Of a DNA stretch of 45,391 nucleotides, positions 1-41,532 are shown piece after piece; positions within the stretch are counted from its first letter, which is position 1, and each line of letters opens with the position of its first letter. The position numbers and the translations under genes were made by a program. The notes beneath the pieces are model-generated. The model made no database searches, was not told the origin of the DNA, and saw only the letters and a program-made list of their open reading frames with translations. The stretch lies in the NCBI GenBank assembly GCA_024635585.1, contig JAGXIP010000221.1, forward strand, positions 1 to 45,391, given 5' to 3'. The stretch comes from Saccharicrinis sp. (GTDB lineage Bacteria; Bacteroidota; Bacteroidia; Bacteroidales; Marinilabiliaceae).

Positions 1-2
1 CT

Positions 3-101
3 ATTGATACTTGGATTAAAAGAGAAGCCGATATATTCAATAGCCTTAGCTTTGCCATTCAATTGGACACGCAAAAAAAATACTACCTTGCTAATAAATA
101 G
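3..101 (+). CDS. C-terminal end of a probable HsdS specificity subunit (partial)
   Basis: An open frame enters from the left edge and stops at 99-101. The 32 residues end in QLDTQKKYYLANK, which resembles the closing helix of type I specificity subunits, where a coiled coil ends in a Leu-x-x-Gln-Lys-Lys-x-x-Leu pattern. The match is too short to prove identity, but hsdR lies downstream at 4324-7605, so an hsdM-hsdS-hsdR order interrupted by three extra genes is a reasonable inference. HsdS would choose the DNA target for methylation and cleavage. Confidence 0.45.
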   Translation: MDTWIKREADIFNSLSFAIQLDTQKKYYLANK

Positions 102-179
102 GTCAAATTATACATTCCATAAAAGAACCTGAGCTGTAACAGCAAATTAATACTGTTCGAAAGTGATTTAGTAATTATT

Positions 180-2225
180 TTGGTTCGAAAGAATACTAAG
201 TTTGAAATCCCATACATTCAAGTAACTGATGCTATATCAGATATTTGTAGGGCTTGGGCAACTACCAAAGCCAATGCAGATAGATTGCACCCTTTGGAAT
301 TAAAAGTATGTGACCCTGAAGAAAACTCTTATACTATTCAAAATTGGAATAGCTCTAAGCACCTCAAAGGTTGCTCCGGTTCTGGGATAATATCGGAAGA
401 TAGGCCATTATTATATGGTTTTATTATGCAACACTCAACGGAAGAACTACAAGGCGGTTATATTGATGCTGTTGATATTTCTTTTGAGCAAATAAATAAC
501 AAACTCTATAATCATAAGCTCGAAGTTTTATCTACAATAGATAATAAAAAGAAACGTATTGTAAGGAATCAAATAGTTGTGGACATCATTGATGTTACAA
601 TTAATGAGGTTAAGATGGATTTGCAACTTGCCAGAAACAGAGTCATCTGTGATACATATGATGATTGGTTTCACGACCCATTAAATTTCATTGATTTATC
701 TCATGAAGATTTTTTGTTTGAGTATTTCAATGAGTGTTTTAACGATGAATATAAAGTTTCAGAAGCAGAGGTTTACTATTTGCCTAAAAAGTCTTTTACA
801 TTAAGAAAAGCTATGATTATTCCTTATGCCGATAGGGTCTTTTATGCTGCATTAGTTGAAGTTGTAGGAAATCGTATAGATGACGCACTTTCACCATTTG
901 TTTTTTCAGCCCGATACAATAACAAAAAGCATAATGGGTTAATGATTTCCGGAGTTGAACAATGGAAAAAAATGCAGTATTTATTAAAGGAATATTCTTT
1001 GAAATATAAATACGTTATTGAAATTGACATCCTGAACTTTTATGATAATATTGACATTGAACTTTTGGGGAAGAAAATATCAGCCGTTTGCGTAACCCCT
1101 AATGAGCGAAATGCTTCCAAAGAATTAGTGAAAGTTCTTAAAACCTTCGCAGGAAACAAATCCATTGGCATTCCTCAGAATAATGATGTATCTTCTTTAT
1201 TAGCAACATTTTATTTAAATCAAGTTGATGCATATATGCGACATCATGTTCCAATATATGTTAGGTTCATGGATGACATACGAATTTTCTGTAATGATAA
1301 GTATGAAGCGAGAAGGTATTTAACATTAATTGAAAAGGAGCTTCGAAGAATAAATCTATCTCTTAATGGGCAAAAAACGAAAATAGTAAACCTCAAACCT
1401 AGAATAAAAAAGGAAAAGGAGGAGATAACTGAGTCATATCGAAAGCCATTTGATTTAGAAAAAAGCAAACTTTCAAGGTTTTCTAATTCTCGGAATATTA
1501 GTCATATTAATGAAGCATTTCATTTAGCAATAAATGTGCTATTAGAAAACGCTAAAGAAAACCCTACAGGTAGTAATTCTAATGAAAGGAAACTTAACCA
1601 AGCTATCACCACCATCAGACGGTGTGTTTCTAAAGGTGTTAATTTGAAAAAAGGAAGTGATATCAGTCAATTTCTAGAAGAAGCTGGTACCTTAATGAAA
1701 GACCGCCCATGGGTAACTCCTCAAATTTGTACTATGATTGGAGTACTTGATAAAATCTACATTCCAAATAGATTGTGGTCTGAGGCTATTGAAATCGTAT
1801 TAGATATAAAATATAATGTATATCCATGGCAAGGTTATCATCTTTGGCTTTTGCTAGCTAAGCATAAAATAGACAATGTAAAGTTGAGAAAATACGCAAG
1901 TAATTACCTTGACTCAAAAGATGAAACTTCAAGACCTATAATTGCGGCTATGATGATATATATGGGGACAATTGACCAAGATTATAGACGAGTCATACTA
2001 AGAAAATACAATGAAGGATTTACTCATGGCAGTAACTTTCAGGAAAGAATAGCATTAATTGTACTAAGAGCGATTGAATCTTCAGATATTTCATCTAATG
2101 ATGCGAAAGTAAAAGCTGTACATAAAAGTTTAAATTATTTTAAAGATAAGGATTTGGTCTATATTCCTGGTGAAAAAGATGATATTGAAATTGATTTAGA
2201 ATTATTGCAAATCTACTCACTATGA
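180..2225 (+). CDS. Reverse transcriptase of the defence-associated (UG/Abi/DRT-like) kind
   Basis: RNA-dependent DNA polymerase of 681 residues. Seen in the protein: an RT1-2 block (KKSFTLRKAMIIPYADR and SPFVFSARYNN), motif A with catalytic Asp283 in EIDILNFYDNID, motif B with GIPQNND at 330-336, the active-site box FMDD at 363-366, and an RT6-like LNGQKTKIV. About 250 mostly helical residues follow, as in defence RTs, and no group II intron maturase or integrase domain is present. Residues 1-145 precede the RT core and are unassigned. No ATG lies near the 5' end; the frame opens after a stop at 120-122 and TTG at 180 is the best available start (first internal Met is residue 82). It overlaps the next gene by ATGA. 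Base composition is visibly more AT-rich than hsdR, suggesting transfer. I cannot place it in a numbered UG or DRT class. Confidence 0.93.
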   Translation: MVRKNTKFEIPYIQVTDAISDICRAWATTKANADRLHPLELKVCDPEENSYTIQNWNSSKHLKGCSGSGIISEDRPLLYGFIMQHSTEELQGGYIDAVDISFEQINNKLYNHKLEVLSTIDNKKKRIVRNQIVVDIIDVTINEVKMDLQLARNRVICDTYDDWFHDPLNFIDLSHEDFLFEYFNECFNDEYKVSEAEVYYLPKKSFTLRKAMIIPYADRVFYAALVEVVGNRIDDALSPFVFSARYNNKKHNGLMISGVEQWKKMQYLLKEYSLKYKYVIEIDILNFYDNIDIELLGKKISAVCVTPNERNASKELVKVLKTFAGNKSIGIPQNNDVSSLLATFYLNQVDAYMRHHVPIYVRFMDDIRIFCNDKYEARRYLTLIEKELRRINLSLNGQKTKIVNLKPRIKKEKEEITESYRKPFDLEKSKLSRFSNSRNISHINEAFHLAINVLLENAKENPTGSNSNERKLNQAITTIRRCVSKGVNLKKGSDISQFLEEAGTLMKDRPWVTPQICTMIGVLDKIYIPNRLWSEAIEIVLDIKYNVYPWQGYHLWLLLAKHKIDNVKLRKYASNYLDSKDETSRPIIAAMMIYMGTIDQDYRRVILRKYNEGFTHGSNFQERIALIVLRAIESSDISSNDAKVKAVHKSLNYFKDKDLVYIPGEKDDIEIDLELLQIYSL

Positions 2226-3676
2226 AAGAGTTTGTTGTTTTTTACATTTTTAATAAATGGCACTACCACAATATAACGGAGGGTGAAAATGGTGTTGTAT
2301 CTATTCAAGGTTTTAATCAAAGATTTAGCCATGAGGATAGGTTCTACTCTACGCAAGTTGCTGAATTTATTAAACAGTACAATGAATTCACCACTTATCA
2401 AGCGTTACCGATATTAATTGATATAGAATCATATTCTAAGCAATTTATTCAAAAATCTAAACCTTTAGAAAGTCAGGATAAATGGAATTTATTTAAAATT
2501 CTTAAAGAAAAAGAGTTTCTGCCCGATGGATTTCAAATAACAGATGAGAACATATTTGATTATATCCAAAAAATTGGTGAGTTCATTCATGGAATTACTG
2601 AGGATAAAGCTTTCCTCGAGAAAGAACGATTCACTAATATTGAGATGCCTGTCAATGGAATTATTTATGAATGTCAGCGGAAAGGAATTGCTGTTGATGT
2701 GGAATCAGCAAAAGAAAAAATACAATCTTTAGAAGAAGCTGTATATGGTATTAAAAATAAGCTTCAACTGAGTTACAAGGTTTTTACCCCCGAAAAAAAT
2801 GATGCTCAAGTAAACTGGTTGGAAAGAAATGAAATTGAAATTAATGGTTCAATTGAACGTACTTTTAAAACTTATAGTAAAAAAAATGAGGCCTGTAAAC
2901 TGTTTTATGAGTTAATTAGAAACCAGAAAGACCTTGATAGTTTCTTAGATATTTTAGCTCGTAGAGGAGGGAGTTCTCGAACATTCCCAAGTTTTCATGG
3001 ATTCGGGACAATCACTTCAAGAATTACATTAAGAGAACCGGCACTACAAAACATTCGGAGAACGAATCGTAGAATAATAAAACCTGATGACGACTGTGAT
3101 TTTATATATATTGATTACTCACAATTTGAAGCTGGAATTCTGGCCTCATTAAGCAAGGATGATAAACTATGTAAGCTTTATAATGTAGATATCTATAGCG
3201 ATATGGTTTCAGGTATTGGAGGCACAATAGAAACAAGAGATGATGCAAAGATTGAGTTCTATAAATTTATGTATGGAGCTTCCAATCTTTTACCAGCTGT
3301 TAATAGGTACTTTTCAAAGTTTAAAAAATTACAGGCATATAAAAAGAAAATTGAAAAAGAAGCAACAGATAATAAAATTGTTGGTACAACCATGGGAAAC
3401 TACAGAAATGTAGAAGAAAATATCTCACTTTCTTTAAGTCATACAATACAAGCAACAGCTTCTCTAATATTTAAAAAAGCAGTAATAAAAGTAAAAGAAG
3501 AAATTCCAGAAGTTGAATTTGTATTACCAATGCATGATGCAGCATTATATCAAGTTAACAACCGATATGATTTTGAAGAAATAACCAATAAAATTAAAGC
3601 TATTTTCATCCAAGAATTTGCTGAAAATTGTCCTGAGATAAAACCTAGAGTGAATGATAGTGAGTTTTATTATTGA
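2222..3676 (+). CDS. Stand-alone family A DNA polymerase (PolA-like)
   Basis: A 484-residue polymerase with the palm/fingers of DNA polymerase I and no 5' nuclease. Motifs: GTITSRITLREPALQNIRR (the usual T-G-R...LQNIP region with Gly replaced by Ser), motif A DYSQFE at 298-303 with metal ligand Asp298 and steric-gate Glu303, and an O helix with exact Pol I spacing, Arg339, Lys343, Tyr347, Tyr351-Gly352. Motif C is His438-Asp439-Ala440, so the usual HDE has lost its Glu while keeping the catalytic Asp. Tyr at the position of Pol I Phe762 is as in T7 polymerase. The ATG overlaps the stop of the reverse transcriptase (ATGA), implying coupled translation. It could make the second strand on RT-made cDNA; that role is inferred. 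Confidence 0.9.
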   Translation: MKEFVVFYIFNKWHYHNITEGENGVVSIQGFNQRFSHEDRFYSTQVAEFIKQYNEFTTYQALPILIDIESYSKQFIQKSKPLESQDKWNLFKILKEKEFLPDGFQITDENIFDYIQKIGEFIHGITEDKAFLEKERFTNIEMPVNGIIYECQRKGIAVDVESAKEKIQSLEEAVYGIKNKLQLSYKVFTPEKNDAQVNWLERNEIEINGSIERTFKTYSKKNEACKLFYELIRNQKDLDSFLDILARRGGSSRTFPSFHGFGTITSRITLREPALQNIRRTNRRIIKPDDDCDFIYIDYSQFEAGILASLSKDDKLCKLYNVDIYSDMVSGIGGTIETRDDAKIEFYKFMYGASNLLPAVNRYFSKFKKLQAYKKKIEKEATDNKIVGTTMGNYRNVEENISLSLSHTIQATASLIFKKAVIKVKEEIPEVEFVLPMHDAALYQVNNRYDFEEITNKIKAIFIQEFAENCPEIKPRVNDSEFYY

Positions 3677-3702
3677 TATTAGAACTAATATAAACGCAAA
3701 GT

Positions 3703-4272
3703 ATGTTTTTATTTTTTGATACTGAAACAACAGGATTACCAAAAAACTGGAAGGCTCCAGTTACTGATTTGAATAATTGGCCTAGAATGGTTCAAGTAGC
3801 ATGGATACTTTGCGATATGAATGGAAGTCGCATTGAAGCTAATGATTACATTATTAGACCGACTGATTTTGTCATTCCCAAAGATGCATCAAAAGTTCAT
3901 AGAATTACTACAGAAAGGGCTATTAAGGAAGGTGTAGATTTACAAGAAGTTCTTAATGAATTTAACTCATTAGTAAATAAAGCTGACACTATTGTTGCTC
4001 ATAACATAAGCTTTGACGAAAAAATAATTGGAGCAGAGTTTATAAGAACGAAAATCAAAACTAGTTTTCAGAGTAAACAGAAGCTTTGTACGATGCATTC
4101 ATCAACTAATTATTGTAAAATCCATGGGCCCTATGGCTTCAAATGGCCTAAATTATCTGAATTACATTTGAAACTATTTGGTGTTGATTTTGCGGAAGCA
4201 CACGATGCTTCCGCAGATATTAATGCAACAGAAAAGTGCTTCTGGGAAATGAGGCGATTAGGATTGATATAA
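3703..4272 (+). CDS. DEDDh 3'-5' exonuclease (DnaQ-like)
   Basis: A 189-residue exonuclease of the DnaQ/epsilon superfamily. All three Exo motifs are intact: Asp6 and Glu8 in FFDTETTGLP, Asp105 in AHNISFDEKII, and His167 with Asp172 in AHDASADINA, giving the DEDDh set. It lies 26 bp after the polymerase gene on the same strand and shares its AT-rich composition, so it is probably the third member of the operon. It could proofread the family A polymerase, which has no exonuclease domain of its own, or trim cDNA or phage DNA. Family assignment is firm; the partnership is inferred from position. Confidence 0.92.
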   Translation: MFLFFDTETTGLPKNWKAPVTDLNNWPRMVQVAWILCDMNGSRIEANDYIIRPTDFVIPKDASKVHRITTERAIKEGVDLQEVLNEFNSLVNKADTIVAHNISFDEKIIGAEFIRTKIKTSFQSKQKLCTMHSSTNYCKIHGPYGFKWPKLSELHLKLFGVDFAEAHDASADINATEKCFWEMRRLGLI

Positions 4273-4323: not shown

Positions 4324-7300
4324 ATGAAAATAACTGAAAACGACATAGAGCTATGGGCAATTGAGGAATTAAAAAGCCTTGGTTGGAACTATTTACATGG
4401 TGCTGTTCTTGCACCTGATGCTTCGACACGCTCAGCAACAGGTGAGGCTCCAGAACGCAACTCCTTTAGTGATGTTATCTTGAAAGGTCGCTTGCAAGAA
4501 GCCATTGCCCGAAATAATCCGCATATTCCTTACGAAGCCCAACAAGAAGCTTTAAAAGTAATTGAGCGCATTGCTTCGCCTGAATTAATGGTCAACAACC
4601 AAGAGTTTAATGAGCTACTTACTGAGGGTGTTCCGGTAGAATACCGCAAAGGAGGTGTACAACGTGGCGACCGTGTTCAGTTGGTTGATTTTACAAATCC
4701 GAATCAAAATGATTTTTTGGTGGTCAATCAGTTTACTATCACTAATGAAACGGTTGGTGAGCGTAGTCGAACCAAACGCCCCGATTTAATTCTATTTGTA
4801 AACGGTTTGCCTTTGGTTATTTTTGAACTAAAGAATGCTGTGGATGAGAATGCCACCTTACATTCTGCATACAAACAAATTCAAACCTATAAGGATACTA
4901 TCCCTAGCCTGTTTACTTACAATGCCTTTTGCGTATTGTCAGATGGTGCTGATGCCAAAGCAGGTTCAGTATCGGCTGGCTATTCTCGCTATTTAGCATG
5001 GAAAACAAGCGATGGATTAAATGAAGCTTCGGCCTTAACCAGTCAGTTAGAAGTATTGATTAAAGGATTAATTACTCCTGGTACTTTATTGGATTACATT
5101 CGCTATTTTATTGTTTTTGAAGAAGTTAAGACACTCGATCGAGTATCTCAACAAGTCTCTATATCTACAGTAAAAAAAGTAGCTGCCTATCATCAATATT
5201 ACGCCGTAAATAAAGCCATTGAGTCGGTTAAGCGAGCATCCACCAATAATGGCGACCGTAAAGGTGGTGTGGTTTGGCATACCCAGGGAAGTGGCAAATC
5301 ATTGTCTATGGTGTTTTTTAGTGGCAAATTGGTGTTACAACTCGATAACCCAACCATATTGGTTATTACCGACCGCAACGACCTAGACGACCAGTTATTC
5401 GATACCTTTGCATCATCCAAACAATTACTACGTCAAGTTCCTATTCAGGCAAATAGTCGAGAGCATCTAAAGGAGCTATTAAAAGTGGCTTCGGGAGGTA
5501 TTGTATTTGCTACCATCCAAAAGTTTCAAACAGAAGGAGAAACAAATATTTACGAGCAGTTATCCGACCGCACTAATATTGTAGTAGTTGCCGATGAAGC
5601 CCACCGCACCCAATACGGTTTTAAACCAAAATCACTCGAAGTAAAAGATGATAAAGGCAATGTGGTAGGTCAACGCTTGGTGTATGGCTTTGCTAAATAC
5701 ATGCGCGATGCTTTACCCAATGCGACCTATTTAGGCTTTACAGGTACGCCTGTGGAATCAACAGATAATAATACCCCTGCTGTTTTCGGTAACTATGTCG
5801 ATATTTACGACATCGCCCAAGCGGTTGAAGATGGTGCAACCGTACCCATTTATTACGAAAGCCGATTGGTGAAAATTAATCTATCGGAAGAGGGCAAACA
5901 ACTCATTGATGAACTGGATGAAGAACTGGCAAATGAAGAACTTTCGGACACACAAAAAGCCAAAGCCAAATGGACAAAAGTGGAAGCCATTGTAGGTAGT
6001 GAAGCACGACTAAGGAAAGTTGCCGAAGATATAGTTTTTCATTACGAAGAGCGCAATAACAATGGCATCGATGGTAAAGCTATGATTGTTTCCATGAGCC
6101 GCAGAATTGCCGTTGATTTATACAAAGAAATCATCAAGATACGTCCGCATTGGCACAATGGTGATTTAGACAAAGGCGTAATTAAAGTGGTAATGACGGC
6201 TTCGTCATCAGATGGACCGGAAATGATGAAACATCACACCAATAAAAAGGAGCGTCAGGACTTAGCCCTACGAATGAAAGATAATTCCGATCCTCTGAAA
6301 TTGGTTATCGTCAGAGATATGTGGCTCACAGGTTTTGATGCACCAAGTTTGCACACGCTGTACATCGACAAACCCATGAAAGGTCATAACCTGATGCAAG
6401 CCATCGCAAGGGTTAACCGGGTTTATAAAGATAAACCGGCCGGTCTTGTTGTTGACTATCTTGGTATTGCATCCGATTTAAAAAAGGCTTTGTCCTTTTA
6501 TTCCGATAGTGGCGGTAAAGGCGACCCTGCCGAAACGCAGGAAAAGGCGGTGCAGCTGATGTTGGAAAAATTGGAAGTGGTCTCACAGATGTTCTCAGAG
6601 AATGGTACAAGCAAAGAATTCGATTACGACATGGCTGCCGATCCAAAAACAAGGTATGGCGATGGCCTGCCTGCCGGAGCTTCGGCGCAGGCAGGTTTTG
6701 CGTACGAAAAATATTTTGATGCCAACGTAAAGCAAAAATTGGAGACTATACTTTCGGCCGTGGAGCATATTTTGGATTTGCAAGACGGTAAAAATCGCTA
6801 TGTGCGCGAAGTCACTGCCCTATCCAGAGCCTTCGCCATTTCCTTGCCCCACGACGAGGCCATGGATGCCAAAGACGAGATAGCCTTTTTTCAGGCTGTA
6901 AAAGCAAGGATACAAAAGCTCGACATGAATGCTTCTTCAGGTGGCAAAAGTGACTACGAGATTGAAACAGCCATTAAGCAAGTCATCGACCAAGCCATCG
7001 TATCGGAACAAGTAGTAGATATTTTTGATGCAGCCGGCATAAAAAAACCGGAAATATCGGTGCTCGATGATGAGTTCCTGGAAGAAATGCGGGACATGAA
7101 GCACAAGAACCTTGCATTGGAAGTACTTAAAAAACTATTGAACGATGAAATAAAAATCCGTTCCAAGCACAATATCGTTCAAAGTCGCACTTTAATGGAG
7201 ATGCTGGAATCATCCATTAAACGCTACCAAAACAACCTCATTAGCGCAGCAGAAATCATTCAGGAAATGATTAATCTGGCCAAAGAAATTAAAGAAGCCG

Positions 7301-7605
7301 ACAAACGTGGCGAAAAAATGGGCTTATCAAAAGATGAGCTGGCATTTTACGATGCCGTAGCCCAAAATCAAAGTGCCAAAGACTTATTGGGTGACGAAGT
7401 ACTCCTAAAATTAGCAAGAGTACTGGTAGAACGTGTAAAAGATAATGCCACTATAGACTGGACAGTAAAAGAATCGGTCAGAAAGAAACTAAAAGTGATT
7501 GTAAAACGCACCCTACGCCAATACGGTTATCCACCCGACATGCAAAAACTGGCAACGGAAACGGTTTTAAGCCAGGCGGAGGCTTTGGCGGAGTTTTGGA
7601 ATTGA
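4324..7605 (+). CDS. hsdR: Type I restriction enzyme R subunit (HsdR)
   Basis: The 1093-residue motor and nuclease subunit of a type I restriction-modification complex, of normal family length. The N-terminal nuclease has the PD-(D/E)xK set Asp154 and Glu168-Leu-Lys170 in RPDLILF...VIFELKNA. The SF2 helicase core follows: Walker A GSGKS at 322-326, DEAH at 424-427, the GFTGTP motif, and the late motif DAPSLHTLYIDKPMKGHN with QAIARVNR. A helical C-terminus docks on the methylase in this family. Methylase and specificity genes would lie left of the window. It follows the exonuclease gene by 51 bp. A 30-bp palindrome is inserted in frame (separate entry). Confidence 0.97.
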   Translation: MKITENDIELWAIEELKSLGWNYLHGAVLAPDASTRSATGEAPERNSFSDVILKGRLQEAIARNNPHIPYEAQQEALKVIERIASPELMVNNQEFNELLTEGVPVEYRKGGVQRGDRVQLVDFTNPNQNDFLVVNQFTITNETVGERSRTKRPDLILFVNGLPLVIFELKNAVDENATLHSAYKQIQTYKDTIPSLFTYNAFCVLSDGADAKAGSVSAGYSRYLAWKTSDGLNEASALTSQLEVLIKGLITPGTLLDYIRYFIVFEEVKTLDRVSQQVSISTVKKVAAYHQYYAVNKAIESVKRASTNNGDRKGGVVWHTQGSGKSLSMVFFSGKLVLQLDNPTILVITDRNDLDDQLFDTFASSKQLLRQVPIQANSREHLKELLKVASGGIVFATIQKFQTEGETNIYEQLSDRTNIVVVADEAHRTQYGFKPKSLEVKDDKGNVVGQRLVYGFAKYMRDALPNATYLGFTGTPVESTDNNTPAVFGNYVDIYDIAQAVEDGATVPIYYESRLVKINLSEEGKQLIDELDEELANEELSDTQKAKAKWTKVEAIVGSEARLRKVAEDIVFHYEERNNNGIDGKAMIVSMSRRIAVDLYKEIIKIRPHWHNGDLDKGVIKVVMTASSSDGPEMMKHHTNKKERQDLALRMKDNSDPLKLVIVRDMWLTGFDAPSLHTLYIDKPMKGHNLMQAIARVNRVYKDKPAGLVVDYLGIASDLKKALSFYSDSGGKGDPAETQEKAVQLMLEKLEVVSQMFSENGTSKEFDYDMAADPKTRYGDGLPAGASAQAGFAYEKYFDANVKQKLETILSAVEHILDLQDGKNRYVREVTALSRAFAISLPHDEAMDAKDEIAFFQAVKARIQKLDMNASSGGKSDYEIETAIKQVIDQAIVSEQVVDIFDAAGIKKPEISVLDDEFLEEMRDMKHKNLALEVLKKLLNDEIKIRSKHNIVQSRTLMEMLESSIKRYQNNLISAAEIIQEMINLAKEIKEADKRGEKMGLSKDELAFYDAVAQNQSAKDLLGDEVLLKLARVLVERVKDNATIDWTVKESVRKKLKVIVKRTLRQYGYPPDMQKLATETVLSQAEALAEFWN
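6666..6695. repeat. GC-rich palindrome inserted in frame in hsdR
   Basis: Perfect 9-bp arms CCTGCCTGC (6666-6674) and GCAGGCAGG (6687-6695) surround a 12-nt loop. The 30 bp, a multiple of three, encode LPAGASAQAG, a Gly/Ala-rich insert unlike the flanking HsdR sequence. It looks like a small mobile palindromic repeat that settled in a surface loop without breaking the gene. Confidence 0.7.
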
Positions 7606-7837: not shown

Positions 7838-8083
7838 ATGGCAATTTTAAACGTAATTCCAATAGGAAATTCAAAAGGTGTTATAATTCCTAGTAATATT
7901 CTTAAGAAGTTAAATACGGACAAAATAGAAATTATAGAAAATGATATTGACTATACTTTAAAGGCTGCTACGCCAGTTCGAGAAGGGTGGGAAATGGCAG
8001 CCATAGAAGCTCACAAAAACGGTGATGATAAGTTAATGATGGATTTCTCTAATGAATTTGACCTAGAAGAGTGGAAATGGTAA
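7838..8083 (+). CDS. mazE: MazE-like antitoxin (AbrB-type)
   Basis: An 81-residue protein with an N-terminal swapped-hairpin AbrB/MazE DNA-binding fold (VIPIGNSKGVIIPSNILKKL) and an acidic C-terminal tail ending DLEEWKW, the part that in this family wraps the toxin. It would neutralise the MazF product of the next gene and repress the shared promoter. Its stop codon overlaps the start of mazF, as usual for these pairs. Confidence 0.88.
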   Translation: MAILNVIPIGNSKGVIIPSNILKKLNTDKIEIIENDIDYTLKAATPVREGWEMAAIEAHKNGDDKLMMDFSNEFDLEEWKW

Positions 8084-8397
8084 ATCAATATGATGTTTAT
8101 TGGGTTAATTTGGACCCAACAGTAGGAAATGAAATTACTAAAACACGCCCTTGTGTTATCATATCCCCTAATGAATTAAATAAAGGATTAGGAACCGTTT
8201 TAGTTTCTCCTTTAACGAGTACTGTTAAAAGCTATCCTTTTCGCTCTCTCTGCTCTATTAATAATAAGCAAGGAGCTATTGCTTTAGACCAAACAAGATG
8301 TGTTGATAAATCTCGACTTTTTAAGAGGTTAGGAAAATTAAAAAAGAGTGAAATACAAGAGTTAAAATCTACATTACACGAAATGTTAATTAAATAA
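8077..8397 (+). CDS. mazF: MazF-like endoribonuclease toxin
   Basis: A protein of about 106 residues of the MazF/PemK family. It shows the N-terminal strand VYWVNLDPTVGNEITKTRP with the conserved Gly-x-Glu and Lys-x-Arg-Pro that form the RNA-cleavage site, then CVIISPNELN and LVSPLT, and the late Asp-Gln-x-Arg (LDQTRCVDKSRL). The ATG at 8077 overlaps the end of mazE by 7 bp; a GTG at 8071 would add two residues. MazF toxins cut single-stranded RNA at short sites when the antitoxin is degraded. Confidence 0.93.
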   Translation: MVNQYDVYWVNLDPTVGNEITKTRPCVIISPNELNKGLGTVLVSPLTSTVKSYPFRSLCSINNKQGAIALDQTRCVDKSRLFKRLGKLKKSEIQELKSTLHEMLIK

Positions 8398-9030: not shown

Positions 9031-9032
9031 AT
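8931..9032 (+). promoter_or_regulatory. Three phased operators of the hip operon
   Basis: Inverted repeats ATTATAT-N8-ATATAAT occur at 8971-8992 and 9011-9032. A third, with one degenerate half (TTTATAC-N8-ATATAAT), occupies 8931-8952. Starts are exactly 40 bp apart, about four helical turns. The last site overlaps the hipB start codon, so binding would block initiation. HipB-type repressors bind such palindromes and bend DNA cooperatively. Confidence 0.8.
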
Positions 9033-9252
9033 GAAGACACTTTCAGATTTTGTAAAACAAAGACGTAAGGAGGTAAATCTTACCCAAGAGGAGTTTGCCG
9101 ATAGAGCCGGTGTAGCTTTAACTGTTATTAGGAAAATTGAACAGGGAAAAAGCAATCTTAATCTTGATAAGGTAAATCAAGTATTGGCCATGTTTGGACA
9201 TGAGTTGGCGCCTGTAAATAGCAAAGACATACAGAAAACAACCGAACAATGA
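9031..9252 (+). CDS. hipB: HipB-like antitoxin/repressor (Xre HTH)
   Basis: A 73-residue helix-turn-helix protein: FVKQRRKEVNLTQEEFADRAG then VALTVIRKIEQGKSNLNLDKVNQVL form the classical Xre five-helix domain. A short tail follows. It is the first gene of a three-gene operon with ATGA overlaps and sits directly under three palindromic operators, so autorepression is likely. In tripartite systems HipB mainly boosts repression, while HipS can carry the antitoxin activity. Confidence 0.9.
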   Translation: MKTLSDFVKQRRKEVNLTQEEFADRAGVALTVIRKIEQGKSNLNLDKVNQVLAMFGHELAPVNSKDIQKTTEQ

Positions 9253-9590
9253 GACAGGCAAAAATATACTATCAGGATATTCTGGCAGGTATATTAACTG
9301 AAACAGAGGATGGTGAATACAAATTCACCTATGATACTGAATACGCCGATACGCATCCCGACCAATTTTTATCCTTTACTATGCCCGTACGCAAATATAC
9401 CTATAGTTCAAATAGGCTCTTCCCATTTTTTGAAGGCCTAATACCTGAAGGATGGTTGTTAGATATAGCATCAAAAAACTGGAAAATCAATAAAAACGAC
9501 CGTATGGGTCTTTTGTTGGCATGTTGCCAGAACTGTATTGGAGCCGTTAGCGTTAAACCAGTCACCTCAATATTAGATGAGCAGAGATGA
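9249..9590 (+). CDS. hipS: HipS-like small subunit (HipA N-terminal domain)
   Basis: 113 residues corresponding to the N-subdomain of HipA kinases: YYQDILAGILTETEDGEYKFTYD and the hallmark LSFTMPVRKYTYSSNRLFPFFEGLIPEGWLL. In two-gene hipBA systems this domain is fused to the kinase; here it is separate and lies between hipB and the kinase, with ATGA overlaps on both sides. That is the HipBST arrangement, in which HipS neutralises HipT. The antitoxin role is taken from the family. Confidence 0.85.
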   Translation: MRQAKIYYQDILAGILTETEDGEYKFTYDTEYADTHPDQFLSFTMPVRKYTYSSNRLFPFFEGLIPEGWLLDIASKNWKINKNDRMGLLLACCQNCIGAVSVKPVTSILDEQR

Positions 9591-10519
9591 GTAAAAAGTG
9601 TTTATATTGTTATCAAGCCTTAAGTGGAGAAACAGATTTTCACGAATCGTGTAGCCAAAAGTTCTTTGGGTCAAAAACACCTCCACTTATCCCCTATTCA
9701 TTGGAGCAAATGGAGGAATTAGCCCAAAATGTTGTTGAAAAAAGTATAGCCGTACCTGGTGTTCAGCCAAAATTATCCATGAGTTTTAACGCAAATGCAG
9801 ACAAACGACTTACCGTTGTGGGTGCATTGGGTGGAAATTACATCTTTAAGCCACCTTCGGCAGACTTTGAAGAAATGCCGGCCAACGAACACCTTACCAT
9901 GCGAATGGCAGAAGTATATGGCATTAATGTAGTTCCTTCCAGCCTAATTCGGTTGAAATCGGGCGAAATATCGTATATCACCAAGCGCATTGATAGAACT
10001 AGCGAGGGTTCTAAAATCCATATGTTGGATATGTTTCAAATAACCGAAGCTTTTGACAAATATAAAAGCTCTATGGAAAAAGTGGGAAAAGCACTTGGCG
10101 AATATTCATCTAATCCATTATTGGATAAGCTCTTTTTGTTCGAAGTGACTTTATTCAGCTATTTATCAGGCAACAACGATATGCACCTAAAAAACTTTTC
10201 CATGATTCTAAGTAATGGCTTATGGACACTTGCACCGGCCTATGATTTGCTAAACGTAGCTATTGTGCTGCCCGAAGATGATGAAGAATTGGCATTGACG
10301 CTAAATGGTAAAAAGAAGAAACTGAACAAAGCTGGCTTTGATAAATTTAGTCATAATCTCGGACTAAATAATAAGCAGCTTACTGGTATCTATAATCGTT
10401 TTGTAAAGAATAAAAAGAAAGCTGAAAAGCTTATTGATGCATCTTTTTTAAGTGATAGCATGAAGGGAAAGTGCACCTCATTACTCAATGAAAGACATAA
10501 CAAGCTATTCTCGGAATAA
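9587..10519 (+). CDS. hipT: HipT-like serine/threonine kinase toxin
   Basis: A 310-residue HipA-fold kinase lacking the N-subdomain. Residues 5-22 carry Cys-x2-Cys...His-x2-Cys, a possible small zinc site. The Gly-rich loop VPGVQPKLSMSF (56-67) with two Ser corresponds to the segment that HipT kinases autophosphorylate. The ATP Lys lies in YIFKPP; the catalytic loop is GNNDMHLKNFS with Asp198 and Asn203; the metal Asp is Asp220 in APAYDLL. Family members phosphorylate aminoacyl-tRNA synthetases and halt translation. Which synthetase is targeted cannot be told from sequence. Confidence 0.9.
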   Translation: MSKKCLYCYQALSGETDFHESCSQKFFGSKTPPLIPYSLEQMEELAQNVVEKSIAVPGVQPKLSMSFNANADKRLTVVGALGGNYIFKPPSADFEEMPANEHLTMRMAEVYGINVVPSSLIRLKSGEISYITKRIDRTSEGSKIHMLDMFQITEAFDKYKSSMEKVGKALGEYSSNPLLDKLFLFEVTLFSYLSGNNDMHLKNFSMILSNGLWTLAPAYDLLNVAIVLPEDDEELALTLNGKKKKLNKAGFDKFSHNLGLNNKQLTGIYNRFVKNKKKAEKLIDASFLSDSMKGKCTSLLNERHNKLFSE

Positions 10520-37461: not shown

Positions 37462-40400
37462 ATGAGTAAAATATTAGGACTTGACCTGGGAACCAATAGC
37501 ATTGGATGGGCTGTGGTGGAAACTGAAGATAATAAAACCTTTACGCCTGTTGATAAGGGGGTACGCATTTTTCAAGAAGGTGTTAAAATAGAGAAAGGGG
37601 TAGAGGGGTCAAAAGCTGCGGAACGAACTGGATATAGAAGTGCACGACGGTTAAAATATCGACGGAAATTAAGAAAAATAGAAACCTTGAAGGCGCTTGT
37701 TCAATTTGATTTATGCCCACCACTTAGCACTGATGAATTAAATAATTGGCGTTATAAAAAAGATTATCCTACCAATGAAGCGTATAGAAATTGGTGGTTG
37801 ACAGATAATGATGCTAATATTGAAACAAGAAAAGAGCAAACAAAGAATCCATATTATTTTCGGTTTTTAGTGGCTACTAAAAAACTTGATTTGCGAGCTC
37901 AAGAAAATAGGTACGCACTTGGTAGAGCTATATATCATATGGCTCAACGGAGAGGGTTTTTAAGTAATCGATTAGAGAGCACAAAGGAAAGTGAAGGTGC
38001 AGTTAAAAGTGGTATTGCCGAAATAAGTAAGGCCAAAGGTGAAAGAACCTTAGGACAATATTTTTATGATCTTTATTTAAAAGGTGATAAAATACGTGAC
38101 CATTATACCCATCGCGAAGACCACTATCTGGAGGAGTTTAATCATATTTGTAAAACGCAGGAGTTGCCTACTGAGCAGATAGATATTTTGCGAAAAGCTA
38201 TATTTTATCAGCGACCCCTCAAGTCGCAAAAAGGATTGATTGGTACATGCCCGTTTGAAACTAATAAGCCTCGTTGCGCTGTATCTCATCCTTTATTTGA
38301 AGAATATAGGATGCTTTGTTTTTTAAACAATATTAAAATTAAAACGCCTGATGACGAAAAACTACGTGTTTTAAGTGAAAAAGAAAGAGAAGATGTAATG
38401 CCTGTTTTCTACCGAAAAAGTAAAGAGCATTTTGATTTTGATGATATTGCCAAACAACTGGCTCCTAAAAAACAATATAAATACTTTAAATCTGCAGATA
38501 AAAACCCCGAAGACTGGTTGTTTAATTATACGATGAAAACAACGGTTAGCGGCTGTCCAGTATCAGCACGTTTTAAATCGGTATTTGGTGATGATTGGAA
38601 AAGTTTGTCCATACCACATATCCGTGAAAAAGATAAAAAAGCATCCTTTATAAATATCGATGACGTTTGGCATGTACTGATGACATTTGATTCTGATGAA
38701 AAACTGGCCGCATTTGCGACAGAAAAATTAAAGTTGAATGAAGAACAAAAAAAGGAGTTTGTCAATATACATCTGAAACAAGATTTTGCTTCCCTAAGCT
38801 TAAAAGCCATAAACAAGATTTTACCGTATTTGCAACAAGGACTTATTTATTCACATGCCGTTTTTTTGGCCAACATGGAAGCTGTTATCCCTGCCGATAT
38901 TTGGAGTGATAAAGAAAATCGTGAACTTATTCAAAACGAGATTCACCAAATCATTCAAACCCAAAACGAGGAAAAGCAAATTGTTGATATTGTTAATGGA
39001 CTTATTAAGCATAATAAAGAAGCTGATGCAGTTTGGAGTAAAGAGGCGATAGATTTGTATCAAGCCGATTTGTTGAAACAGATTAAGATATATTATGGCG
39101 AAAATACTTTTGAGGCCTTTAAATTGGAAAGGAAGGAGCGGATTGAAAAAAATGCGTTTGAATTATTTTCCCATCAAATGCAAAAGAAAATGGGTTGTGG
39201 AGAGTATGCCAAGATGCAGCGTATCGACGACCGCATTAAATCATTTTTAGCGGATCAATTTGAAGTTAACGGGAGCGCTGAAAAATTATATCATCCTTCC
39301 GCCATTGAAACCTTTAAGCCTGCAAAAAAATCAGAGGATGGCAACTATTATTTGGGTAGTCCGATGACAAACTCGGTCAGAAACCCAATGGCAATGAGGG
39401 CACTTCACCAATTACGTAAGGTTGTAAATGAATTAATTAAGGCTGAAACTATTGATGAATCCACTACTATACATATTGAAATGTCGCGTGGATTAATGAA
39501 TGCCAATGAACGCAAGGCATTACAAAACTGGCAACGTAAACGTGAAACTGAACGCAAAAAATATGCAGAGGAAATTAAAAAGCATTTTGATGCTCAAGGT
39601 ATAAAAGCCGAGCCAAACGAAAGTGAGATATTAAAATATCAGCTGTGGGAAGAACAAAAGCATATTTGTATTTATACAGGCAATAACATTGGTTTGAGTG
39701 ATTTTTTAGGCGGAGGAACAAGTTATGATATCGAACATACCATTCCACAAAGTCTTTCCTTTGATAATTCGCAGGTTAATAAGACGCTCTGTGAAAATAA
39801 ATTTAACAGAGCTGATAAACGGAACAAAATACCCTACGGACTCACCAATCATGAAATTATACTGGAGCGTATTGGACATTGGAAAATAAATTTCGAAAAT
39901 CTGGATAAACAAATCATTCAAGCTGTCAGAAGTGCTAAAGGAGCAGCTACAAAAGAAGCAAAAGACAAAGCGATTCAGAAAAGGCATGAGTTGACGTTTG
40001 AACGTAATTACTGGCGAGATAAATATCAACGCTTTACCATGAGGGATGTACCAAGCGGATTTAAAAACAGTCAACTTGTGGATATAGGTATTATTACAAA
40101 ATATTCAAGACTATACCTTCAAACCTTATTTAATAAAGTGTTTACCGTAAAAGGAAGTACAGTTGCCGATTTTCGTAAGTTTTGGGGCTTGCAGGATGTA
40201 TATGAGAAAAAAGCACGGGTTAATCATGTGCACCATTGCATTGATGCCATAACCATAGCCTGTATGACCAAGCCTCAATATGAAAAGCTTGCCAATTTTT
40301 ATCATGATTGGGAAGGCTTGCGTGAAGATGGACACGATAAAAAGCCAGTTTTTGATAAACCTTGGCCTACTTTTACCGAGGATGTTAAGAAAATAGAAAA

Positions 40401-41532
40401 CGAGCTGTTTGTATCGCATTATACTCCCGATAACTTACCCAAGAACAATAAGAAGATACTTCGCAAACGTGGTAAAAAACAATACGACAGTAAGGGTAAT
40501 CCAATTATTCAAACTGGTGACTCGGTGAGAGGTAGCTTACACAAGGATACTTTTTATGGTGCTATTGAAAGGGAAGTAGAAAACAAAAAGGGGGAACTTG
40601 AAAAAGTTATCAAATATGTAGTCCGCAAAAAGGTGGGAGATCTATCAGATGCCGATCTTAACAATATTGTTGACGATAAAGTCCGTGAAATAGTTGAGGA
40701 AGCTAGAAAAATGGAAAAATCCTTGCTGAAAAAAATTGAAGGACTAAGAAAAGATCTGCAAAAAGCAGAGGAGCACGACGAATCAGATATCAAAAGCGCA
40801 ATTGTTGCAATTGAAGAACATATATTAGGATTGTATTGCATGCCCAATAAAAATGGTACACCGGTACCAATAAAAAAAGTACGCTTATTTCAGCCTACAG
40901 TTACCAATCCGCTAGCTATTAAAAAACAGCGAGATAAAAAGAAGGATGGATCTAAGGAGTACAAACAAAATTATTATGCAGCCAATGATGGTAATTATAT
41001 GATGGCCATATACGAGGGTAAGGATTTGAAGGGTAAAGTAAAGAGGGATTTTGAGTTGGTTAATATCATGAAGGCAGGTGAATACTTTAAGAAGTCGGTT
41101 CAATCTACGCTGCAGCCTCAGGGTATTGATCAGTTTGAAGGCTTATTCCCCAAGTTTAAAATAAATGGAAAATTGGAACTGCCTCATAAAGCCAACATCA
41201 AAATTGGGACTATGGTAATTTTATGGGAAAATACTCCCGAAGAAGTTTGGGATTTAGAGATGAAAGACATAAAAAAGAGATTGTATAAAGTGGTTGGTTT
41301 AAGTATAAATAGAATAAAATCGGGAAACAAGTTTTATGAATTTGGGATGAGTGTATTGCGCTTTCATCAAGAAGCGAATGCTGCAAGTGAGTTGAAAACA
41401 CAAGATGGGATGTTCCAACATGACGAACCATATATTCCTCAAAGAAAAATGAGTCATAACCAGTTTGATGCATTAGTGGAGCATGTTGACTTTAAAATTT
41501 CCACCCTCGGCAAAATCATCAAAATAAAATAG
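37462..41532 (+). CDS. cas9: Cas9 endonuclease (type II-C)
   Basis: 1356 residues. RuvC-I ILGLDLGTNSIGW with Asp8; Arg-rich bridge helix (RTGYRSARRLKYRRKLRKIE) at about 54-75; helical REC lobe; RuvC-II IHIEMSRGL with Glu673; HNH domain YDIEHTIPQSLSFDNSQ with His759 and FNRADKRNK; RuvC-III VHHCIDAITIA with Asp928 (canonical HHAxDA with Ala replaced by Cys); then WED/PAM-interacting C-terminus to 1356. All nuclease residues are present, so it should be active. It uses the crRNA-tracrRNA duplex described here. A strong terminator follows, so cas1-cas2 are transcribed separately. Confidence 0.98.
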   Translation: MSKILGLDLGTNSIGWAVVETEDNKTFTPVDKGVRIFQEGVKIEKGVEGSKAAERTGYRSARRLKYRRKLRKIETLKALVQFDLCPPLSTDELNNWRYKKDYPTNEAYRNWWLTDNDANIETRKEQTKNPYYFRFLVATKKLDLRAQENRYALGRAIYHMAQRRGFLSNRLESTKESEGAVKSGIAEISKAKGERTLGQYFYDLYLKGDKIRDHYTHREDHYLEEFNHICKTQELPTEQIDILRKAIFYQRPLKSQKGLIGTCPFETNKPRCAVSHPLFEEYRMLCFLNNIKIKTPDDEKLRVLSEKEREDVMPVFYRKSKEHFDFDDIAKQLAPKKQYKYFKSADKNPEDWLFNYTMKTTVSGCPVSARFKSVFGDDWKSLSIPHIREKDKKASFINIDDVWHVLMTFDSDEKLAAFATEKLKLNEEQKKEFVNIHLKQDFASLSLKAINKILPYLQQGLIYSHAVFLANMEAVIPADIWSDKENRELIQNEIHQIIQTQNEEKQIVDIVNGLIKHNKEADAVWSKEAIDLYQADLLKQIKIYYGENTFEAFKLERKERIEKNAFELFSHQMQKKMGCGEYAKMQRIDDRIKSFLADQFEVNGSAEKLYHPSAIETFKPAKKSEDGNYYLGSPMTNSVRNPMAMRALHQLRKVVNELIKAETIDESTTIHIEMSRGLMNANERKALQNWQRKRETERKKYAEEIKKHFDAQGIKAEPNESEILKYQLWEEQKHICIYTGNNIGLSDFLGGGTSYDIEHTIPQSLSFDNSQVNKTLCENKFNRADKRNKIPYGLTNHEIILERIGHWKINFENLDKQIIQAVRSAKGAATKEAKDKAIQKRHELTFERNYWRDKYQRFTMRDVPSGFKNSQLVDIGIITKYSRLYLQTLFNKVFTVKGSTVADFRKFWGLQDVYEKKARVNHVHHCIDAITIACMTKPQYEKLANFYHDWEGLREDGHDKKPVFDKPWPTFTEDVKKIENELFVSHYTPDNLPKNNKKILRKRGKKQYDSKGNPIIQTGDSVRGSLHKDTFYGAIEREVENKKGELEKVIKYVVRKKVGDLSDADLNNIVDDKVREIVEEARKMEKSLLKKIEGLRKDLQKAEEHDESDIKSAIVAIEEHILGLYCMPNKNGTPVPIKKVRLFQPTVTNPLAIKKQRDKKKDGSKEYKQNYYAANDGNYMMAIYEGKDLKGKVKRDFELVNIMKAGEYFKKSVQSTLQPQGIDQFEGLFPKFKINGKLELPHKANIKIGTMVILWENTPEEVWDLEMKDIKKRLYKVVGLSINRIKSGNKFYEFGMSVLRFHQEANAASELKTQDGMFQHDEPYIPQRKMSHNQFDALVEHVDFKISTLGKIIKIK

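Follow-up and report, generated by a model that had tools for sequence, protein, structure and literature searches.

Gene content of the locus

We analysed a 45,391-nucleotide (nt) stretch of DNA from a Saccharicrinis sp., here called the window, which is the entire contig C34 of an assembly of 310 contigs that is 90.5% complete. Near its start, genes for a reverse transcriptase (RT), a family A DNA polymerase (PolA) and a DnaQ-like exonuclease stand in a row on the forward strand, followed by hsdR of a type I restriction-modification (R-M) system. The RT belongs to UG9_large, one of the defence-associated reverse transcriptases (DRTs). Our favoured account, to which, together with the mechanism proposed for it below, we give moderate confidence, is that a UG9_large defence operon inside a type I R-M locus has kept only its 3' part in the window, and that the protease-nuclease arm of this operon was lost to a mobile element.

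The RT gene (180-2225; 681 amino acids, aa) has PADLOC RT_UG9_large (PDLC03785) as its best family, at an E-value of 1.1e-258, with UG9_small second at 9e-73. The PolA gene (2222-3676) overlaps it by ATGA and matches RTasPolA (PDLC03816) over its full length at 4.2e-138, as well as Pfam DNA_pol_A. The third gene (3703-4272) encodes a DEDDh 3'-5' exonuclease (PADLOC DEDDh, 2.6e-28; RNase_T, 5.4e-15), and hsdR lies at 4324-7605 (REase_I, E 0). All four are on the forward strand. An original prediction, made from the sequence, had read the three enzyme genes as real and as a defence operon next to hsdR, naming the FMDD motif of the RT and the DYSQFE (Asp298) and HDA motifs of the polymerase. FMDD (Asp365/366), motif A Asp298 and motif C HDA are present, as is FDTETTG in the exonuclease; the profile matches confirm the genes, and RT_UG9_large is, with RTasPolA and RTasMBL, among the DRT components of PADLOC. 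The low G+C content that it had noted is also seen: 32.2, 30.8 and 33.9% for RT, PolA and exonuclease versus 42.3% for hsdR.

The RT gene is not complete. The UG9_large profile aligns only over positions 97-772 of 772, and the open reading frame (ORF) starts at an internal TTG that corresponds to residue 102 of the 781-residue RT of Carboxylicivirga linearis (locus L013). Residues 1-101 of that protein, including protease residue His47, are missing, and a full N-terminal protease domain is not found in the window RT. Upstream of the TTG, a remnant of the protease-RT frame (141-179, forward strand) has no ATG, GTG or TTG start. It reads SKLILFESDLVII versus DKIILFESDLVII in L013 and keeps, at 165-167 and so outside the ORF, the codon aligned with the catalytic Asp97. 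Within the gene, the protease Ser codon in GCSGSG falls at about 375-377, the codons of the FMDD Asp pair at about 1272-1277 and that of the penultimate Ser at about 2217-2219; a helical-repeat domain covers about 1410-2138, with borders transferred from the L013 model.

A dispersed repeat at the broken end

Bases 1-140 (forward strand), which hold the tail of a short ORF (3-101), have four other near-full copies in the genome, 94-97% identical, at the ends of contigs C202, C294, C100 and C283. All copies diverge right after the same base (140), and a fifth, partial match of 39 bases lies inside C268. The ORF had been taken for a probable hsdS tail; we rejected that reading, since it is part of the dispersed repeat. 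The repeat occurs in two of the 31 relatives searched, own genome included. A genome of the same genus holds two 100% copies at contig ends, one of them a solo end without a transposase. No relatives of the repeat were found in plasmids, or in viral contigs by exact pattern. The segment is probably the end of an insertion sequence, and a mobile element would then have cut off the upstream metallo-beta-lactamase (MBL) gene and the front part of the protease.

Similarity to the L013 RT gene begins at base 148 by blastn, and in frame at about 144. The L013 MBL protein has no match in the source assembly, which is incomplete, and a comparison with the L013 hsdM-hsdS-MBL DNA gave only short stretches of 71-77% identity on C60 and C97, which are not this locus. 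The junction at base 140 could instead be an assembly artefact at the contig end, the organism itself carrying an intact operon. All four other near-full copies sit at contig ends too, and the fragmented, incomplete assembly yielded no hsdM, hsdS or MBL gene of this locus. However, the point of divergence is identical in all copies, and L013 homology resumes within a few bases of it, as in a genuine insertion, and we judge an artefact unlikely, at roughly one chance in five. For the window, the lesson is that disruption by a mobile element can make a known operon pass for a new triad.

Relatives of the RT

An alignment of seven RTs was scanned against genome contigs, and the best 80 of 175 confirmed relatives were kept. 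PADLOC typing was done for some of these 80 loci; elsewhere, large or small type means RT length together with MBL. Counts include the near-copies L019 (of L018) and L026 (of L025), and also L003/L052 and L004/L089, which are apparently the same records. Alignment A5 leaves out L029, whose RT is split, and L019, L026 and L032.

The large type comprises 25 loci (L013-L037), with complete RTs of 776-830 aa. In the other 55 loci the RTs are mostly 490-620 aa long; one of these, L044, is large-type by PADLOC and cut at the contig start. A FastTree phylogeny of 79 sequences (L005, L019, L026, L032 and L088 left out), its printed tree read by eye, groups the large-type sequences with L044 and the long-branch L086, a UG32 RT. 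This is compatible with a single origin of the large type; a scripted test for an exact large/small split in the tree found none. At a threshold of 1e-60 the UG9_large profile matched 3 of 395 genomes of the phylum and 2 of 393 of the order, and each of these counts includes the own genome. The three further matches align from profile position 213 at the earliest, and their RTs of 545-583 aa look small-type.

RT relatives were not found in viral contigs, scanned with the own protein, or in phages at E 1e-20; five plasmid records hold relatives at about 24% identity. UG9_small-like RT-PolA pairs occur on plasmids typed as conjugative or mobilizable in Dinoroseobacter, Paraburkholderia and Falsirhodobacter (L006, L007 and L008; PADLOC typing for L006 only). 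Near-identical large-type cassettes were seen in two Pedobacter species (L018 and L019), and a single Pedobacter genome carries its cassette on two scaffolds with the same upstream and different downstream ORFs (L025 and L026).

PolA is the constant partner and the exonuclease is not

The original prediction had asked whether RT homologues recur with polA and dnaQ genes. Of the 80 loci, 78 have a PolA gene downstream of the RT, the exceptions being L082, which is cut at a contig end, and L086 with its UG32 RT. An exonuclease (E at most 1e-5) was met in one locus, L013. The RT falls in a described group, UG9, and its linkage to PolA stands, while the conserved triad does not; by its own refuting condition, the prediction is contradicted in part. 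PRK14975 we take to be a DNA polymerase I-like exonuclease/polymerase entry. The UG9 RT-PolA pairing is already known, being part of PADLOC and also published: myRT lists UG9 as co-occurring with PRK14975 at 94% (PMC8934634).

PolA residues D298, K343 and D439 are kept in 32 of 32 aligned proteins, and a profile built on seven of the UG9 PolA proteins hits Klenow with an E-value of 7e-36. The window PolA was modelled with a predicted local distance difference test score (pLDDT) of 90. Its best PDB matches are Aquifex and Bacillus Pol I, and it aligns along its length with the Bacillus Pol I large fragment at a template modelling (TM) score of 0.76 by query. The protein has no 5'-nuclease and a reduced N-terminal domain, in which no DEDD motif was seen by eye. 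We expect this protein to be active as a polymerase but to lack proofreading of its own, and a role as second-strand enzyme is plausible.

The order RT-PolA-exonuclease-hsdR is common to the window and L013, and in Arenibacter (L015) PolA is directly followed by hsdR. A profile built from the two exonuclease copies was run on the 1404 ORFs of the fetched loci and gave no third one, although a very divergent one could escape it. We rejected the exonuclease as a core partner on profile and strict motif searches, to which the same limit applies. Because it occurs in one of 80 loci, it is a local addition and the triad is not a unit; by its distribution, it appears as an accessory of a small lineage made up of the window and one close relative. 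With PolA lacking proofreading of its own, an added exonuclease would be useful. The original prediction went further and saw in the three enzymes a conserved kit for two-strand synthesis and proofreading. Their adjacency in the window and L013, and a PolA that by eye has no exonuclease motif, would suit such a kit. Its conservation is already contradicted by the survey, and relatives of the exonuclease occur commonly in phages, with 153 records, and in plasmids, with 117. We find this explanation very improbable.

A nuclease-protease pair in intact relatives

All 24 large-type loci that could be assessed (L032 is cut) have an MBL-fold gene immediately upstream of the RT, and none was detected in the other 55. 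The window has no RTasMBL gene. In L013 the MBL protein matches RTasMBL at E 2e-134, then LmuA and Avs1a (PADLOC). The His and Asp residues of THxDxDH and a later HH pair are kept in 21 of 21 aligned MBL proteins. Against solved structures, the MBL profile matches ComEC-type nucleases and not HamM, and the isoleucines of the HamM cleavage site found no placement in the UG9 MBL alignment.

The N-terminus of all 21 aligned full-length RTs carries the trypsin-like residues His47, Asp97 and Ser167 (L013 numbering). Over positions 14-225, a profile built from these RTs aligns with a solved structure, the HamA fusion 9wh1, at E 7e-11, and the protease part of L013 matches PADLOC LmuA at E 1.5e-15. 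Tuck et al. (2025) described nuclease-protease pairs in HamMAB, Avs1, Lamassu and rare DRT variants, and in Hachiman and AVAST the protease frees the nuclease (PMC12799240). As judged from the MBL gene and the catalytic triad, intact UG9_large loci carry this type of pair, and we infer that UG9_large is the DRT variant of Tuck et al. The protease and an MBL pro-nuclease are likely the effector arm. The original prediction missed this arm because, in the window copy, the protease is cut and the MBL gene is missing.

The truncated RT, PolA and exonuclease may still work alone, in the way of UG9_small, a type that consists of RT and PolA and lacks both protease and MBL. Their frames are open, the catalytic residues are kept, and the 55 loci without a detected MBL gene show that such a pair is a natural arrangement. 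However, the RT frame begins at a TTG inside the protease domain, the remaining half of that domain likely misfolds, and the promoter side has been replaced by the repeat. A stand-alone function is improbable to us, and we return to a broken UG9_large operon as the preferred reading.

Template and priming

The space around the large-type cassette is narrow. Gaps before and after it measure 10 and 18 nt in L013, 9 and -20 nt in L015, 12 and 40 nt in L035, and 22 and 60 nt in L037. As no gap exceeds 22 nt on the upstream side or 60 nt on the downstream side, these four loci have no room for a flanking non-coding RNA (ncRNA). Comparison of 600-nt flanks (21 upstream, 22 downstream) gave only short matches at the MBL start and one inside PolA; those at the MBL start reach about 40 nt upstream in close pairs and about 100 nt of the hsdS end in L013/L015. 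On this comparison we set aside a flanking ncRNA in the large branch. The compact intact loci L013 and L015 are test objects free of flanking-ncRNA ambiguity.

An AlphaFold2 model of the 781-aa L013 RT (pLDDT 85; predicted TM score 0.86) places helices at 511-752. Its first ten PDB matches in Foldseek are UG15/DRT4, DRT6, AbiK and Abi-P2, over about 490-630 columns. The trait of Class 1 DRT and Abi proteins, an RT followed by a helical-repeat domain, is thus found in the model. In the Class 1 systems studied so far, DNA synthesis needs no nucleic acid as template (PMC13174585); for DRT6, the product chemistry is reported to be less resolved (PMC13213688).

All 24 large-type RTs counted and 58 of the 59 others (L029, L061 and L063 left out) have a Ser or Tyr among their last three residues, over backgrounds of 0.30 and 0.32, respectively, in the preceding stretch. 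Among RTs that do not overlap PolA, it is found in all 13 of the large type and all 8 others, these 8 rows including one duplicate record and L044, and five rows being left unassigned. Priming residues near the C-terminus are reported for DRT10 (S456), DRT3b (Y666) and DRT9 (Y496/Y498). Together with them, the C-terminal Ser/Tyr is suggestive of a candidate priming residue, and UG9_large RTs may carry out protein-primed synthesis without a cis ncRNA.

Nesting in a type I R-M locus

In C. linearis the intact locus runs hsdM, hsdS, MBL, protease-RT, PolA, DnaQ exonuclease, hsdR. A full R-M operon, with hsdM-hsdS before the cassette and hsdR after it, is also found in L015; in L037, hsdR comes after the cassette, three other genes later. 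Besides the window, 3 of the 25 large-type loci show nesting, the rest having been checked by tblastn for hsdR only. The window holds only the hsdR of its R-M operon, 86% identical to that of L013, and no hsdM or hsdS. Between L013 and L015 identity is 87% for hsdM and hsdR, 55% for MBL, 51% for the RT and 27% for hsdS; between L013 and L037 it is 44% for hsdM and 34% for hsdR. These values suggest that the slot in the R-M locus was filled, or its content exchanged, more than once.

The gene for PrrC likewise sits between hsdS and hsdR. The linked type I R-M enzyme keeps PrrC, an anticodon nuclease, silent until an anti-restriction factor of a phage activates it (PMC2610378). That an R-M enzyme might control UG9 as it does PrrC is speculation by analogy.

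Next to hsdR, a small ORF without a Pfam match is followed by a PemK/MazF-like toxin (7838-8397), likely as a toxin-antitoxin pair. Three consecutive ORFs at 9031-10519 (helix-turn-helix, Couple_hipA, HipA_C) form a split HipBA, reminiscent of HipBST. A Cas9-like protein of 1356 aa (Pfam HNH_4, RuvC_III, Cas9_a) is encoded at 37462-41532.

Proposed mechanism and its weak points

In an intact UG9_large system the RT, built like the Abi, DRT4 and DRT6 polymerases, would start DNA on its own C-terminal Ser or Tyr, with no cis ncRNA. PolA would copy the strand made by the RT into double-stranded DNA. Phage infection may disturb this synthesis or its product and so change the RT assembly, upon which the fused protease would cleave and free the MBL nuclease. 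The freed nuclease would degrade DNA, resulting in abortive infection. The exonuclease, in the small lineage that has it, could trim or proofread ends. The intact relatives are good candidates for a nuclease that is protease-activated and gated by DNA synthesis.

Extended to UG9 as a whole, the idea would be of a self-primed, DNA-writing immunity without a cis ncRNA in which PolA makes the second strand. In the large branch, the product or its loss would control the nuclease-freeing protease, and some units would stand between hsdS and hsdR as a back-up for when R-M is countered. We offer this wider proposal tentatively, at somewhat less than one chance in four.

Several observations weigh against the mechanism and the history that we favour. 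Experimental work on UG9 was not among the literature matches listed, in a search that mostly did not extend to subscription journals. No transposase for the 1-140 repeat was identified in the assembly, and the absence of the missing 5' operon half from it fits deletion or incomplete assembly alike. A search with the single L013 protease sequence found no solved structure at E 0.1. The TM scores of the first ten fold matches are modest, 0.32-0.41 by query, the ncRNA-templated DRT9 follows at rank 11, and in a sequence profile search UG15 ranks below Cas6-RT-Cas1, group II intron RTs and DRT2. Of the 59 other RTs, 46 have a C-terminus that runs into the start of PolA, which could alone conserve Tyr-Asp; the related sequences in the count are not independent and include two duplicate pairs; and the C-terminal tail of the L013 model, with pLDDT below 50, is not placed relative to the active site. 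An ncRNA within coding DNA is compatible with the tight large-type loci as well.

The remaining point concerns the template. Four small-type loci of Rhodobacterales share a stretch of some 200 nt directly before the RT (L006:4721-4919, L008:4723-4919, L073:3214-3412 and L078:9721-9919), 73-86% identical between pairs and with stops in all frames. This conserved non-coding block is a candidate ncRNA, and a template RNA is possible in that branch. The median upstream gap in 40 small-type loci is 191 nt by a crude ORF call. UG9 might then be a DRT of Class 2 type that reverse-transcribes a cis ncRNA, with PolA adding the second strand to a defined cDNA. Against this, a covariance model of the block, run on 85 sources, recovered the four sequences that it was built from and, at E 1.7, a single further match; covariation, seen in 3 of 53 pairs, is weak; and the four large-type loci have no flanking space. 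Rfam gave no match in the window, L006, L013 or L015; in L078 it marked a tRNA about 6 kb from PolA. An ncRNA across the small branch was not borne out, the block being real but confined to four close relatives, and we consider a cis ncRNA for UG9 in general doubtful. Protein-primed synthesis is still the account we prefer for UG9_large.

Comparison with known systems

UG9 (large) of PADLOC-DB is the best family for both the RT and PolA, and its intact relatives are ordered MBL, protease-RT, PolA. The window differs in lacking the MBL gene and the first 101 protease-RT residues, in its additional DnaQ exonuclease and in its place beside hsdR. New here are the lack of flanking-ncRNA room in four loci, the Abi/DRT4/DRT6-like RT model and the C-terminal Ser/Tyr.

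Intact loci resemble the Tuck et al. pairs in that the MBL gene immediately precedes a defence enzyme fused to a protease, and in the 9wh1 profile match. In UG9, however, the sensor would be RT plus PolA rather than HamA-HamB or a STAND ATPase, and in the window the pair is broken. The Abi, DRT4 and DRT6 RTs are the first matches to the UG9_large model over the RT and helical repeats, with modest TM. AbiK primes at Tyr44, whereas UG9_large has its candidate priming residue at the C-terminus, in addition to an N-terminal protease and a PolA partner. With PrrC there is in common a second defence gene linked genetically to a type I R-M enzyme, but the proteins are unrelated.

DRT3 (two RTs, poly(GT/AC) duplex) and DRT7 (RT-primase-polymerase) also couple an RT to a second DNA polymerase activity. 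A double-stranded or duplex-like product is reported for them, whereas the UG9 partner is a family A polymerase with a gene of its own. Nearly all related loci seen here join the UG9 RT to a relative of DNA polymerase I, and in one branch a protease-nuclease pair comes on top. If our account is true, UG9 would add to DRT3 and DRT7 another route by which a defence RT makes double-stranded DNA, and one that links DNA synthesis directly to proteolytic nuclease activation.

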